From: a gamma proteobacterium HIMB30
GTDB lineage: Bacteria; Pseudomonadota; Gammaproteobacteria; Pseudomonadales; Litorivicinaceae
Reading direction: 5' to 3'
DNA: 64,000 bases
Assembly (NCBI GenBank): GCA_000227525.2
Contig: AGIG01000007.1
Location: 1 to 64,000, forward strand
Of the stretch, positions 10,603 to 15,739 are shown piece by piece. The notes under the pieces are model-generated. The model saw only the letters and a list, made by a program, of their open reading frames with translations. It made no database searches and had not been told where the DNA came from. The position numbers and the translations under genes are program-made. Within the stretch, counting starts at the first letter, position 1, and every line of letters starts with the position of its first letter.

Positions 10603-11349
10603 ATGTCGAAGCGTATTGCACTAGTCACAGGTGGTACTGGTGGTATTGGAACCGCAATTTGCCAAGAACTTTTTACCCAAGGATTCACAGTCGTCGCAGG
10701 CTATAACTCCGGGGGTAACCATGAAAAAGCCAAAGCATGGCAAGACGAACAGCGTTCAGCGGGCTTTGAATTCGATATCGCCTATGGTGATGTTTCTGAT
10801 TCAGAATCAGCTCGGCAATGCGTCGAGGGAGTGGTCGAAAAACACGGTAACATCCACTGCCTGGTCAACAACGCTGGGATCACGCGTGATTCGACTTTTC
10901 GTAAGATGACACTCGAGCAATGGGATCAGGTGATGCATGCGAACCTGCGATCAGTCTTTAATATGACTCGCCTTGTTATCAACGGAATGCTCGAAGAAAA
11001 GTGGGGCCGTGTCATTAATATCAGTTCGGTCAACGGCCAAAAGGGACAATTCGGTCAGTCGAATTATGCTGCGGCGAAAGCCGGGATGCACGGGTTTACA
11101 AAATCACTGGCTCAAGAAGTCGCATCAAAAGGTGTGACTGTGAATACAGTCAGTCCCGGCTACATCATGACAGCGATGGTTGCAGCGATTGGTGATGAAA
11201 TACTCGAGAAAATTGCATCGACAATTCCGGTCGGTCGACTGGGTAACCCAGACGAAATTGCCTATGCAGTCGCTTTCCTTGCCTCAGAACGTGCAGCCTT
11301 CGTCACAGGATCAAACCTTGCAATCAACGGTGGACAGCACATGTTCTAG
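10603..11349 (+). CDS. phaB: Acetoacetyl-CoA reductase
   Basis: 248-residue short-chain dehydrogenase that reduces acetoacetyl-CoA to (R)-3-hydroxybutyryl-CoA for PHB synthesis. NADPH-binding TGGTGGIG is at 9-16, NNAG at 89-92, Ser near 141-142, and the catalytic Tyr155/Lys159 in NYAAAK. The C terminus (INGGQHMF) is typical of PhaB. A GGAG lies upstream of the ATG. It is followed by a terminator and then phaC, so phaB and phaC are probably separate transcripts. The SDR superfamily is broad, but the PHA context supports the assignment. Confidence 0.95.
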   Translation: MSKRIALVTGGTGGIGTAICQELFTQGFTVVAGYNSGGNHEKAKAWQDEQRSAGFEFDIAYGDVSDSESARQCVEGVVEKHGNIHCLVNNAGITRDSTFRKMTLEQWDQVMHANLRSVFNMTRLVINGMLEEKWGRVINISSVNGQKGQFGQSNYAAAKAGMHGFTKSLAQEVASKGVTVNTVSPGYIMTAMVAAIGDEILEKIASTIPVGRLGNPDEIAYAVAFLASERAAFVTGSNLAINGGQHMF

Positions 11350-11364
11350 GGCCACCGACCAAGA

Positions 11365-11400
11365 GTCGACACCGAATTCTCGTTGTCGGCTTTCTTTTTT
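11365..11400 (+). terminator. Rho-independent terminator after phaB
   Basis: GTCGACA pairs with TGTCGGC (one G-U) across a 12-nt loop and is followed by TTTCTTTTTT. It begins 16 nt after the phaB stop. Confidence 0.75.
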
Positions 11401-11413
11401 GTGCGACGCACAA
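11399..11413. promoter_or_regulatory. Palindrome upstream of phaC, candidate operator
   Basis: TTGTGCG-A-CGCACAA is a perfect 7+7 palindrome around one central A, 34 nt before the phaC start. The half-site TTGTGCG recurs in the inverted repeat between the phasin and aacS genes, which suggests a shared PHA regulator. The protein that would bind is not in the window. Confidence 0.55.
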
Positions 11414-11447
11414 TACACTAGCGGCTTGTTTTTAAGAGGACACGGAC

Positions 11448-13169
11448 GTGAGCACTGACAATCAGCAAGCACCGGAACAACTTTTCGAATCCATGAATGC
11501 AGAAAGTAAGCGCCTTCTGCAGGGTTTGATGCGCTCTGAAGACACGGCAGATATTGTTAAAAATCTCACCGATGTCTGGACTCAGTTGGTCATGCAACCT
11601 TGGACAAATCCGCAAGGCTGGCTCGAAATGGTGACCAAATATCAGCAAGATCAATTCAAGGTGTGGACTGATCTGATGAGCGGGACAATGAATTTTCAGC
11701 CACAGAAAGACCGTCGTTTTGATTCAGATGAGTGGTCAAAACTTCCGGTCTTCGATTTTATCAAGCAGTCCTATCTGCTCACAGCTGACGTGCTGAGTAA
11801 GTCCACTGACGCCATTCCAGTCGAAGGGAAAGAAAAAGAGAAGCTGAAGTTTTACACCCAGTATTTCATCGATGCGATGAGTCCATCCAATTTTGTCACC
11901 TTAAATCCTGACGTACTCAAAGAAGCAATGGAGACTAATGGTCAAAGCTTGGTTGATGGACTTCAGAATCTCATGACTGACCTTGAAAAAGGTCGCATCA
12001 CCATGACCGATGAATCGGCCTTTGTTCTTGGTGAAAATATTGGAGTGAGCGAGGGGTCGGTTGTCTTCCGCAATCACTTGTTTGAATTGATTCAATACTC
12101 TCCATCGACAGAGACCGTTCATCAACGCCCGTTATTGATCGTACCTCCGTGTATCAACAAGTTTTATATTCTCGATCTACAGCCACAAAATTCGTACGTG
12201 AAATGGTGCGTGGATCAGGGGAACACTGTGTTCTTGATTTCATGGGCTAACACCACATCCGACTACAGTCACATTGGTTGGGATGACTATGTCCAGGATG
12301 GAATTTTTGAGGCAACACGTGTTGTCAAAGAAATTACCGGCGAAAAGAAAATGAACGCAGTGGCCTGGTGTATCGGCGGCACGATTTTGGGTTCTGCACT
12401 CGGCGTGATGCAAAAGAAGCGCGACGCAAGTATCGCCTCTGCGACATTTCTGACAACGCTTCTCGACTTCTCAGATCCGGGCGATTTAGGTGTGTTCCTC
12501 GATGAAGAAGAAGTCGACATGCGCGAGGCACAGGTATCAAAAGACGGCGTCATGTCGGGCAAAAGCCTCGCACTTGGCTTTAATATGCTCCGCTCTAACG
12601 ATTTGATCTGGTCATATGTGGTGAATAATTACCTGAAAGGGAAAACACCGCCGCCATTTGATCTGCTCTACTGGAATTCAGACCCAACCAATCTCCCTGC
12701 AACCATGTACAACACTTATATCCGTGAAATGTATGTGAATAACAGTCTTTCACAGCCGGGTGGATTCACTTGTTGCGATAAGCCAGTTGAATTGAACAAA
12801 GTCAAAACACCGATGTATTTCCTCTCTGCAATTGAAGACCACATTGCACCATGGAAAACCACATTTTTGGGAACGGATCTTGTTGGTGGAGATGTCGAGT
12901 TTGTGCTCGGTGGATCGGGTCATATTGCAGGCGTCATCAACCCACCTGCGAAAAATAAACGAAATTACTGGACCGATGGTGAGATGGGACAGGGTGCTGA
13001 TCATTGGCTGGAAACAGCAACAGATCACCCAGGGTCTTGGTGGAATCATTGGCATCAGTGGCTCGATCAGCACGATTCGAAGCAAGTGCCAGCGCGTCAA
13101 ATTGGGACCAACACCGAGTTTCAGGAAATTGTTCCCGCTCCTGGTGACTACGTCAGGGTCCGCCTGTAA
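11448..13169 (+). CDS. phaC: Class I poly(3-hydroxyalkanoate) synthase
   Basis: 573-residue granule-associated enzyme that polymerises (R)-3-hydroxyacyl-CoA. The alpha/beta-hydrolase core carries a lipase-like box with nucleophile Cys308 (AWCIGGT), Asp464 (IEDHIAPW) and His492 (GSGHIAG), in the spacing expected of PHA synthases. The N-terminal 170 residues are helical, as in class I enzymes, which act without PhaE or PhaR subunits. The start is GTG at 11448 with AAGAGGA seven bases upstream. It converges on the phasin gene across a shared terminator. Confidence 0.97.
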   Translation: MSTDNQQAPEQLFESMNAESKRLLQGLMRSEDTADIVKNLTDVWTQLVMQPWTNPQGWLEMVTKYQQDQFKVWTDLMSGTMNFQPQKDRRFDSDEWSKLPVFDFIKQSYLLTADVLSKSTDAIPVEGKEKEKLKFYTQYFIDAMSPSNFVTLNPDVLKEAMETNGQSLVDGLQNLMTDLEKGRITMTDESAFVLGENIGVSEGSVVFRNHLFELIQYSPSTETVHQRPLLIVPPCINKFYILDLQPQNSYVKWCVDQGNTVFLISWANTTSDYSHIGWDDYVQDGIFEATRVVKEITGEKKMNAVAWCIGGTILGSALGVMQKKRDASIASATFLTTLLDFSDPGDLGVFLDEEEVDMREAQVSKDGVMSGKSLALGFNMLRSNDLIWSYVVNNYLKGKTPPPFDLLYWNSDPTNLPATMYNTYIREMYVNNSLSQPGGFTCCDKPVELNKVKTPMYFLSAIEDHIAPWKTTFLGTDLVGGDVEFVLGGSGHIAGVINPPAKNKRNYWTDGEMGQGADHWLETATDHPGSWWNHWHQWLDQHDSKQVPARQIGTNTEFQEIVPAPGDYVRVRL

Positions 13170-13185
13170 CAGAACGCATCGATCT

Positions 13186-13222
13186 AAAAAACCCCGACTG
13201 ATCTCTCAGGCGGGGTTTTTTT
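13186..13222. terminator. Bidirectional terminator between phaC and phasin
   Basis: AAAAAACCCCG and CGGGGTTTTTTT form a long stem, extended inside by CTGA/TCAG around a small loop. The A-run on one side and T-run on the other let it stop phaC (+) and the phasin gene (-). Confidence 0.9.
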
Positions 13223-13233
13223 GATCGCAAGAA

Positions 13234-13617
13234 TTACTTGTTCAACGACTTTGCCATTTCTTCAGTGTTTTTCTTCACAAGATTCAACGTTTCTTCACTG
13301 ACCTGAGTCCATGACGATGCTTGCTTTTTCGCAAGCGCAGCCATTTTCTCTTGGTACTTCTGGAGGAATTTTTTATGAACCTCCATCAATTCAGGCATTG
13401 ATTCGCACTGACACACAGCACGTGCTTCTTCGAGCGCATCAGCCATCATTTCTGTTGATAGCTGCGTTTGTTCTTCCGCCAATGATTCAAGCATGGAGCG
13501 CTGCAGCTCAAGCAGATCGGTCATTGGCTTCATGGTCTTTTCAAATGCATCCAGATTCATCATCGACTGCATTGATTTCAACATTTCTTCATTTTGCTTC
13601 AGTAATTGATCGAACAC
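13234..13617 (-). CDS. Phasin family protein
   Basis: 127 residues, almost entirely amphipathic helix rich in Met, Gln, Lys and Glu and nearly free of glycine. Phasins coat PHA granules and control their size and number. The assignment rests on composition, length and position beside phaC. The start is GTG at 13617, with AAGAGGA about eight bases upstream. It is convergent with phaC, and divergent from aacS across a 163-bp gap that holds a strong inverted repeat. Confidence 0.85.
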   Translation of the reverse strand: MFDQLLKQNEEMLKSMQSMMNLDAFEKTMKPMTDLLELQRSMLESLAEEQTQLSTEMMADALEEARAVCQCESMPELMEVHKKFLQKYQEKMAALAKKQASSWTQVSEETLNLVKKNTEEMAKSLNK

Positions 13618-13635
13618 GGTTCAGTCCTCTTCAAG

Positions 13636-13678
13636 TTTGTGCGTTGCAATAATTGGAAACTACGTTGCAATGCACAAA
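13636..13678. promoter_or_regulatory. 14-bp inverted repeat between phasin and aacS genes, candidate operator
   Basis: TTTGTGCGTTGCAA (13636-13649) and TTGCAATGCACAAA (13665-13678) are inverted copies with one mismatch and a 15-bp spacer. The same block also holds two direct CGTTGCAAT copies (13642 and 13663) exactly 21 bp apart, two helical turns. It starts 19 bp upstream of the phasin start. TGC-rich sites of this sort are known targets of PhaR-type regulators in other bacteria; that link is inference here. Confidence 0.6.
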
Positions 13679-13780
13679 AATTCAAGTTGATGATTGCAGG
13701 CAATAGTCGTAAACCAAACACCACAAGTAAAAATGCTTTTGCTAGACTTCTCGACCATTGGAATCGAGGATAAAACGACC

Positions 13781-15739
13781 ATGACAGCGCTGTGGACTCC
13801 CACTCCCGAACGCATTGCTCAAGCCAGCATCACCGACTTAATGGCACACTTCAATGCCAAACTCGGACGATCGATCCACGACTACCGAGGTCTGCATCAA
13901 TTCAGTGTTCACGAGCCGGAATCTTTTTGGGATGGTGTCTGGGAGCATGCTGATCTCATCGGTACTCGTTGCTCTCCGACGCTTACAGATCGTGGCGCGA
14001 TGCCAGGTGCCAAATTTTATCCGAATTCAACTTTAAACTTCGCAGAGAACTGCCTCGGTCATGATGCAGATGACTCTGAGATCGCTGTGATTTCATACAC
14101 TGAGGCTGGCACCCGGACAGTATTGAGTTGGGGTGAGCTAAGACAATACGTGGCAAATCTGAGAAATACGTTACAGTCTTTCGGGATTGGACAACATGAT
14201 GTTGTCGCTGGGTTCGTGAGTAACGGTCCAGAAGCCGTCATCGCATCCCTTGCCACGCTGTCTCTTGGTGCAATTTGGACAAGTTGCTCGCCCGACTTCG
14301 GTGTGCAGGGCGTCCTCGACCGCTTTGGACAAACGAAGCCGAAAGCGCTGGTCGCTGCACATACAACTCAGTACAACAACAAATCGATCGACTTAACAGA
14401 CCGCGTGAATGGGTTGCTGGTCGAGCTACTCTCTGTGACCTCAGCGATCATCTTTAATGGGCCATGTCCAAAGGTAAAGGCAGGCGAAATTTCTCGACCG
14501 GGTTGCAAAGTGATTGCATATGATGATGCGGTCTCAGGTAATCACGCACTCGCCTTCGAACACACGCCATTCAATCATCCTGGTTTTATTCTCTACAGCT
14601 CCGGAACGACGGGTGTTCCAAAATGTATCGTACACAGCCAAGGTGGAGCCCTGATTCAGCTGGTAAAAGAGCATCGCTATCATGTTGATATCCAGCCCTT
14701 TGATCGGGTGTTTTATTACACAACCTGCGGTTGGATGATGTGGAATTGGTTGCTCGCTTCATTAGCCTCCAAAGCAACCATCGTGACCTATGATGGATCG
14801 CCATTTGTCCGAGGAGCTAAAACACTGTGGGAGCTCTGTGACCAGGACGATTGGCACGTTTTTGGAACCAGCGCCAAATTCATTGCCGCGCTTGAAAAAC
14901 ATGATTATAAACCCGCCGAGCAACACGCGCTGAAGTCACTTAAAGCGATCCTGTCGACCGGATCACCGCTTGCACATGAATCGTTTGAGTATGTCTATCG
15001 CGAGATTAAGGCGGACCTGCTACTCGGATCGATATCCGGTGGAACCGATATCGTTTCTTGTTTTTGCCTCTCATGCCCGATCCAGCCTGTGTACCGCGGA
15101 GAGCTTCAGTGCGCCGGTCTTGGTCTGGCAGTCGACGTGGTTAACGAATCAGGGCAGTCAGTGAAGGGAGAAAAAGGGGAACTCGTCTGTCGGAAGCCAT
15201 TTCCTGTGATGCCTGTTGAATTTTTCGGTGATACCGATGGCAGCAAATATCGAGCTGCCTACTTCGAGCGCTTTAACGGGATGTGGGCACATGGCGATTT
15301 TGCAGAACACACTGACCGTGGCGGTTTCGTGATTTACGGCCGTGCGGATGCCACACTCAATCCAGGTGGCGTACGCATTGGAACAGCCGAAATTTATCGC
15401 CAGGTGGAGGCGATTCCAGAGGTTCTCGAGTCACTGGCGATTGGGCAATCAGTTGGCGATGATGTCCGCGTTGTCTTATTCGTTGTGTTGCGAGAGGGGC
15501 TTGAACTCGACGATGAATTACGACAACAGATCAAAATGCAAATCAGGAACAACACAACGCCCCGCCACGTGCCAGAGGTGATTGCCCAGGTTCCTGACCT
15601 TCCACGGACTGTAAGTGGTAAGATCGTCGAATTGGCCGTGCGTAATGTTGTCCACGGAGACATTGTCAAAAACATTGAGGCGTTAGCGAATCCAGATGCA
15701 TTGGACTATTTCAAAGATCACCCAGACGTTCGCCTGTAA
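13781..15739 (+). CDS. aacS: Acetoacetyl-CoA synthetase (acetoacetate-CoA ligase)
   Basis: Predicted 652-residue ANL-superfamily enzyme that activates acetoacetate to acetoacetyl-CoA with ATP. The AMP-binding loop YSSGTTGVPKCIVHSQGG, the family-typical TTCGWMMWNW, GRADATLNPGGVRIG and the C-terminal lysine in TVSGKIVE are all visible. It differs from acetyl-CoA synthetase in length and in the N-terminal FW-rich segment (FSVHEPESFWDGVW). The ATG at 13781 gives MTALWTPTPERI, the usual AacS N terminus, with GAGGA upstream. It can feed PhaB directly. Its 3' end overlaps the next gene by 44 bp. Confidence 0.95.
   Translation: MTALWTPTPERIAQASITDLMAHFNAKLGRSIHDYRGLHQFSVHEPESFWDGVWEHADLIGTRCSPTLTDRGAMPGAKFYPNSTLNFAENCLGHDADDSEIAVISYTEAGTRTVLSWGELRQYVANLRNTLQSFGIGQHDVVAGFVSNGPEAVIASLATLSLGAIWTSCSPDFGVQGVLDRFGQTKPKALVAAHTTQYNNKSIDLTDRVNGLLVELLSVTSAIIFNGPCPKVKAGEISRPGCKVIAYDDAVSGNHALAFEHTPFNHPGFILYSSGTTGVPKCIVHSQGGALIQLVKEHRYHVDIQPFDRVFYYTTCGWMMWNWLLASLASKATIVTYDGSPFVRGAKTLWELCDQDDWHVFGTSAKFIAALEKHDYKPAEQHALKSLKAILSTGSPLAHESFEYVYREIKADLLLGSISGGTDIVSCFCLSCPIQPVYRGELQCAGLGLAVDVVNESGQSVKGEKGELVCRKPFPVMPVEFFGDTDGSKYRAAYFERFNGMWAHGDFAEHTDRGGFVIYGRADATLNPGGVRIGTAEIYRQVEAIPEVLESLAIGQSVGDDVRVVLFVVLREGLELDDELRQQIKMQIRNNTTPRHVPEVIAQVPDLPRTVSGKIVELAVRNVVHGDIVKNIEALANPDALDYFKDHPDVRL

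Follow-up and report, generated by a model that had tools for sequence, protein, structure and literature searches.

The repeated palindromes in front of the PHA synthase and phasin genes of this gammaproteobacterium are very probably docking sites for the regulator PhaR, judging from sequence comparison. The operator would consist of TGC-RNY-GCA boxes with TTG/CAA arms and be recognized by a PhaR whose gene lies elsewhere in this genome. Directly observed are the boxes, their conservation in relatives, the gene for PhaR and the agreement with published sites. We regard as highly likely the full explanation, in which the palindromes are PhaR operators, repression is relieved by PHB, and PhaR probably also controls gltA and an FNR-like regulator gene. 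The preliminary description proposed a single PhaR-like regulator for both PHA sites; from the PhaR gene, a 12-mer identical to a published footprint, the genome scan and the conservation, we likewise infer one regulator. Published systems are described here from the accessible parts of the papers cited.

A palindrome with a conserved core precedes phaC1

The phaC1 gene (11448..13169, plus strand) encodes a class I PHA synthase, scoring 711.6 bits against TIGR01838 and exceeding the cut-off of 622.65. A perfect palindrome had been described 34 nt ahead of phaC, and it is indeed present: TTGTGCGACGCACAA occupies positions 11399–11413, and 34 nt separate it from the GTG start codon at 11448. We annotated it as a candidate PhaR operator of phaC (11399..11413) from scans of the genome and of the window (the whole 64-kb stretch of DNA that was analysed), its conservation in relatives and its identity to a footprint; none of the operators reported here is assigned a strand. 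The palindrome holds TGCGACGCACAA and TGCGTCGCACAA, one per strand. In Bradyrhizobium diazoefficiens, PhaR protects both of these sequences at phaP1, with the consensus TGCRNYGCASMA (PMC6201568), and the 12-mer TGCGACGCACAA within the phaC palindrome is letter-identical to the footprinted sequence.

The upstream neighbour is phaB (10603..11349, plus strand), which encodes acetoacetyl-CoA reductase (TIGR01829, 371 bits, above the cut-off of 302); the consensus scan of the window found no TGCRNYGCASMA box ahead of this gene. Between phaB and the phaC operator, RNA folding revealed a probable phaB terminator hairpin followed by a T-rich tract (11362..11393, plus strand). Its fold of −15.8 kcal/mol (z −4.06) was equalled by none of 200 shuffles, and its counterpart in the relative G013 is stronger. 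The terminator consensus scan did not return this hairpin and gave nothing at either window site. A strong hairpin with a T-rich tail in this position suggests that phaC has its own promoter. The sigma-70 consensus scan found no promoter at either window site, so an operator lying on a promoter is a presumed geometry there.

Because the phaC palindrome also folds as RNA (−5.6 kcal/mol, z −2.75), we considered whether it acts as a hairpin or terminator within a phaB-phaC transcript. We judge this very improbable. Of 17 same-genus upstream regions, 15 have a disrupted left arm (TATTGC, TGTTGC, TTTTGC, TGCTGC and others) and retain the TGC...GCA core, indicating that the full stem is not conserved; in addition, a stronger hairpin, distinct from this one, is located immediately upstream. 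TGC-N3-GCACAA is kept at a near-fixed place in all 17 same-genus phaC1 upstream regions (this genome's own counted), 16 of which have a box fitting the consensus. In the alignment, the six core box bases are 100% conserved, as against 69% for the remaining positions.

Two boxes precede the phasin-1 gene

Phasin 1 (13234..13617, minus strand, start at 13617) belongs to the Phasin_2 family (PF09361, 48 bits; TIGR01841, 30.7 bits, cut-off 30.2), and its divergent neighbour is aacS, acetoacetate–CoA ligase (13781..15739, plus strand; TIGR01217, 796 bits, above cut-off). The 14-bp inverted repeat reported just upstream of the phasin gene was recovered, with arms at 13636–13649 and 13665–13678 that are 93% complementary (13 of 14 nt) across a gap of 15 nt. 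The earlier wording of the arms holds for the left one, which reads TTTGTGCG; the right arm, on its own strand, reads TTTGTGCATTGCAA. The two direct repeats said to be spaced 21 bp apart were also found, as CGTTGCAAT at 13642–13650 and 13663–13671, with 21 bp from start to start.

Compared with known PhaR boxes, the region is better read as two TGC-N3-GCA boxes of 15 bp: TTGTGCGTTGCAATA at 13637–13651 and CGTTGCAATGCACAA at 13663–13677, with centres 26 bp apart. The first is the proximal candidate PhaR operator of phasin 1 (13637..13651, centre 13644), which matches TGCRNYGCASMA on the minus strand and is kept in relatives; the second is the distal candidate operator (13663..13677, centre 13670), with its match on the plus strand. 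At same-genus phasin-1 loci, both boxes are present in 10 of 12, and nine of those 10 retain the 26-bp spacing. The functional unit is probably the pair of 15-bp boxes rather than the 14-bp repeat.

The gap between the phasin gene and aacS also contains the element CTACGACTAT (plus strand ATAGTCGTA) at window positions 13700–13712, which is kept in most same-genus genomes. It is perhaps part of the aacS promoter.

The exact palindrome occurs at PHA genes across the genome

Within the window, TGCRNYGCASMA has four matches at three sites, all of them the phaC box and the two phasin-1 boxes, and each site fits the TGC-N3-GCA consensus on at least one strand. This count alone is not significant (four against 1.36 expected; seven of 100 shuffles reach four), nor is a 3-mismatch motif search within the same 64 kb. 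The window counts would therefore suit chance palindromes with no common function, a reading we consider extremely improbable, since the genome-wide count and placement, and conservation at fixed distance in relatives, argue against it.

The genome of 2,168,870 bases (2.17 Mb) contains exactly three copies of TTGTGCN3GCACAA. The reversed pattern occurs zero times, and 0.13 copies are expected at equal base frequencies (P ~3e-4). All of them precede PHA-pathway genes: one is the phaC palindrome, one lies in the gap between phaR and a second phasin gene, and one stands ahead of a gene for a BktB-like thiolase. A genome scan for matches before other PHA genes, as the preliminary description had advised, thus adds the second phasin gene and the thiolase to phaC. 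Allowing one mismatch yields four places: two are the gltA-sdhC gap and the region before an FNR-like gene, and the others fall inside a cytochrome b561 gene and inside an unassigned 181-aa frame beside a ketoacyl-synthase-type frame. With two mismatches there is no excess (64 in the genome, 75 for the reversed control), making this weaker form uninformative by itself. Of 17 further genome matches to TGCRNYGCASMA that were examined, none was seen at a PHA gene and 15 fall inside an open frame of at least 70 aa. The loose consensus alone is therefore unspecific.

The genome encodes one PhaR, and boxes lie between phaR and phaP2

A single PhaR is encoded in the genome (G000:C35:106281-106736). 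The protein carries the PHB_acc_N and PHB_acc domains (PF07879, 101.5 bits; PF05233, 51.2 bits) and scores 137.3 bits against TIGR01848, exceeding the cut-off of 109.45. Our search by sequence for a solved structure of a PhaR relative found none. The second phasin gene, phaP2, directly follows phaR, and three TGCN3GCA boxes lie in between, the middle one within TTGACG-N16-TATCTT, which we took by eye as a promoter. Of 20 genomes that encode PhaR, 19 have the exact palindrome in this gap, two sister-genus genomes among them. Boxes thus stand at both phasin promoters, two before phasin 1 and three before phasin 2, as expected of a PhaR regulon.

No TGCN3GCA box was found in the 200 nt upstream of phaR in any of 18 same-genus genomes examined. 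In our reading, a box at phaR's own promoter (autoregulation) is common in PhaR regulons and does not define them. A second, more divergent phaC-like gene (L004:602-2200) is divergent to phaR and reaches 407 of the 623 bits of the class I model, below cut-off. The region between the two carries TGC-N4-GCA in many, not all, same-genus genomes; we left this sequence out of the box count.

Boxes are conserved in relatives that carry PHB genes

Named PhaC relatives at 91–97% identity include uncultured Litoricola, and the window GC of 50.0% lies within the 47–51% given for OM252 (PMC8269220), from which we place the host in the OM252/Litoricola group. Before counting in relatives, we dropped the phasin upstream region of G013 (contig end), partial FNR matches in G019 and G021, gltA fragments in G010 and G012, and incomplete phaC pieces.

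In relatives the sites stay in place while their flanks change, which is the conservation that the preliminary description had proposed to look for and the opposite of what chance palindromes predict. Across 25 family genomes, the palindrome occupies 26 places: 20 in the phaR-phaP2 gap, two before phaC1, three before bktB and one before isocitrate lyase (in G020). No PhaR match was found in 13 order-level genomes of other families, which contain three palindromes against two for the reversed control, all three inside open frames. The boxes are thus conserved in relatives bearing PHB genes and at background where PhaR is absent, with the exceptions of G007, G013, G018 and G021. These same-genus genomes have boxes and no PhaR match; they are 61–90% complete in 60–370 contigs, and the gap is likely due to missing contigs. 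Another same-genus genome, G014 (L060), has no phaC match; it keeps a diverged PhaR and lacks boxes both at gltA and downstream of phaR.

We also scanned 44 of the 80 loci of a wider phaC set (L091–L134) over an interval reaching from 400 nt ahead of phaC to 30 nt within it. A consensus match was found in 14 of the 44 and a reversed-control match in none. Four of the 14 belong to this genus and the others are mostly from Neptuniibacter and Amphritea. In Neptuniibacter, the consensus PhaR box lies ~175–180 nt upstream of phaC (L093:4795, L096:4801, L133:4800), which hints that an operator at the synthase gene extends beyond this family.

gltA and an FNR-like regulator gene are further probable targets of PhaR

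The gltA box (L006:2472-2486, G000:C2) lies in the divergent gap between gltA, encoding citrate synthase, and sdhC. It was found in 11 of 14 same-genus genomes, none of three sister-genus genomes and none of 12 genomes of other families; those lacking it within the genus include G011, which has phaC1, and G019. The box lies ~55 nt ahead of the start codon and downstream of a conserved sequence resembling TTGACA...TATAGT (by eye), a position from which a bound repressor would block transcription.

Two boxes precede the FNR-like regulator gene (L007:2541-2592, G000:C3), doubled in 10 of 10 same-genus loci in which the N-terminus is present, and likewise in the two homologues seen in the sister genus. 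Because the protein scores 123 of 228 bits against the Fnr model, below cut-off, we call it FNR-like only. These conserved boxes before its own gene raise the alternative that the boxes are operators of an FNR/CRP-type regulator (by autoregulation) or of another factor, with PhaR a bystander. The TTG...CAA outer arms, which we take to be reminiscent of FNR-family boxes, point the same way. We consider this highly improbable. G005 (98% complete) and G012 (91%) have no FNR-like protein match (1e-20 search in G005) and yet keep the phaR-phaP2 palindrome, and G005 also retains the phaC1 and gltA boxes. The boxes thus persist where the FNR-like protein is not found, which speaks against that protein as their binder, as does the identity of the phaC-box 12-mer to a PhaR footprint. 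PhaR itself probably acts on gltA and the FNR-like gene in addition to the PHA genes.

The exact palindrome 75 nt ahead of the BktB-like thiolase gene is present in three of nine same-genus bktB upstream regions and is thus a trait of a few species. In G020, an exact palindrome, TTGTGCACAGCACAA, precedes isocitrate lyase by some 150 nt or more (L030:1501-1515, G020:C4). A box-like match 9 nt ahead of panD (C21:28216) looked attractive because Sinorhizobium meliloti has a site at panC (PMC12542648); we rejected this match, as most relatives have it only in degenerate form or lack it.

Comparison with characterized PhaR systems

B. diazoefficiens is an alphaproteobacterium, whereas the host here is a gammaproteobacterium, and Herbaspirillum seropedicae likewise belongs to a bacterial class other than the host's. 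The B. diazoefficiens system resembles the one described here in its footprinted 12-mer, the same as the phaC box, and in having two boxes at the phaP1 promoter; PhaR there also has effects on TCA enzymes and acts on fixK2, a CRP/FNR-type gene (PMC6201568, PMC10888616). Two differences stand out in the accessible text of these papers. The B. diazoefficiens phaC1 is reported not to be PhaR-regulated, whereas phaC1 here has a clear box, and no box is defined at fixK2, whereas the FNR-like gene here has clear boxes (PMC6201568, PMC10888616).

The AniA/PhaR of S. meliloti shares a palindromic core (YGCRNYGCR), phasin promoters with paired sites, a predicted gltA site and binding at the sdhC promoter, comparable to the gltA box in the gltA-sdhC gap (PMC12542648). 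Unlike the situation predicted here, phbA promoter activity is unaffected by phaR, and the accessible part of the report mentions no FNR-type target; autoregulation of phaR is weak (PMC12542648). Cupriavidus necator (Ralstonia eutropha) has a degenerate palindrome with a one-base centre, YTKNTGCRNYGCANMAR, and a phasin promoter that is repressed until PhaR binds PHB (PMC12849132, PMC9049629). There phaR is autoregulated, in contrast to the same-genus genomes here, which lack a box before phaR (PMC12849132, PMC9049629). The H. seropedicae homologue PhbF recognizes TG[N]TGC[N]3GCAA and binds before phbC, phbA and phaP1, differing in the flank before TGC (TGN versus TTG here; PMC3206438). The Cupriavidus, Herbaspirillum and Sinorhizobium sites all have the TGC-N3-GCA core or a close approximation to it (PMC12849132, PMC3206438, PMC12542648).

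Proposed mechanism and significance

In the known cycle, free PhaR represses its targets, and the repression ends when nascent PHB recruits PhaR to the granule (PMC9049629). Here, free PhaR would occupy one to three boxes at phaC1, at both phasin promoters and, for this species, also at the gene of the BktB-like thiolase, lowering transcription. Once PHB forms, the granule surface would draw PhaR away and the promoters would open. With boxes at phaC1, the polymer would promote its own synthase. At gltA, bound PhaR would block transcription and so spare acetyl-CoA for PHB, as proposed in S. meliloti. PhaR binding, repression, the direction of regulation and titration by PHB are steps that we infer; our literature search found no PhaR-binding data for this organism.

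A tentative extension, to which we give somewhat less than even weight, is that the OM252-type PhaR is a storage switch combining synthase repression with positive feedback, gating of acetyl-CoA into the TCA cycle at gltA/sdh (and at isocitrate lyase in one relative) and control of the FNR-like gene through its paired boxes. The first polymer would titrate the repressor and so speed its own synthesis. This type of switch is already known; the novelty lies in the lineage's regulon, chiefly in an operator at the synthase gene and a pair of boxes at the FNR-like gene. The OM252 genome paper lists phbBC and two phasin genes, and its accessible text does not mention their regulation (PMC8269220). 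Our literature search, with thin coverage of subscription journals, found no report of the regulon.

What began as a guess from sequence is now a defined, conserved and predicted regulon in a cosmopolitan ocean lineage. Of greatest interest are its synthase and FNR links. An operator at the synthase gene leads us to predict positive feedback, and action of PhaR on gltA and the FNR-like gene would tie storage to the entry of acetyl-CoA into the TCA cycle, such that stored PHB may set both TCA entry and a redox-type regulator.
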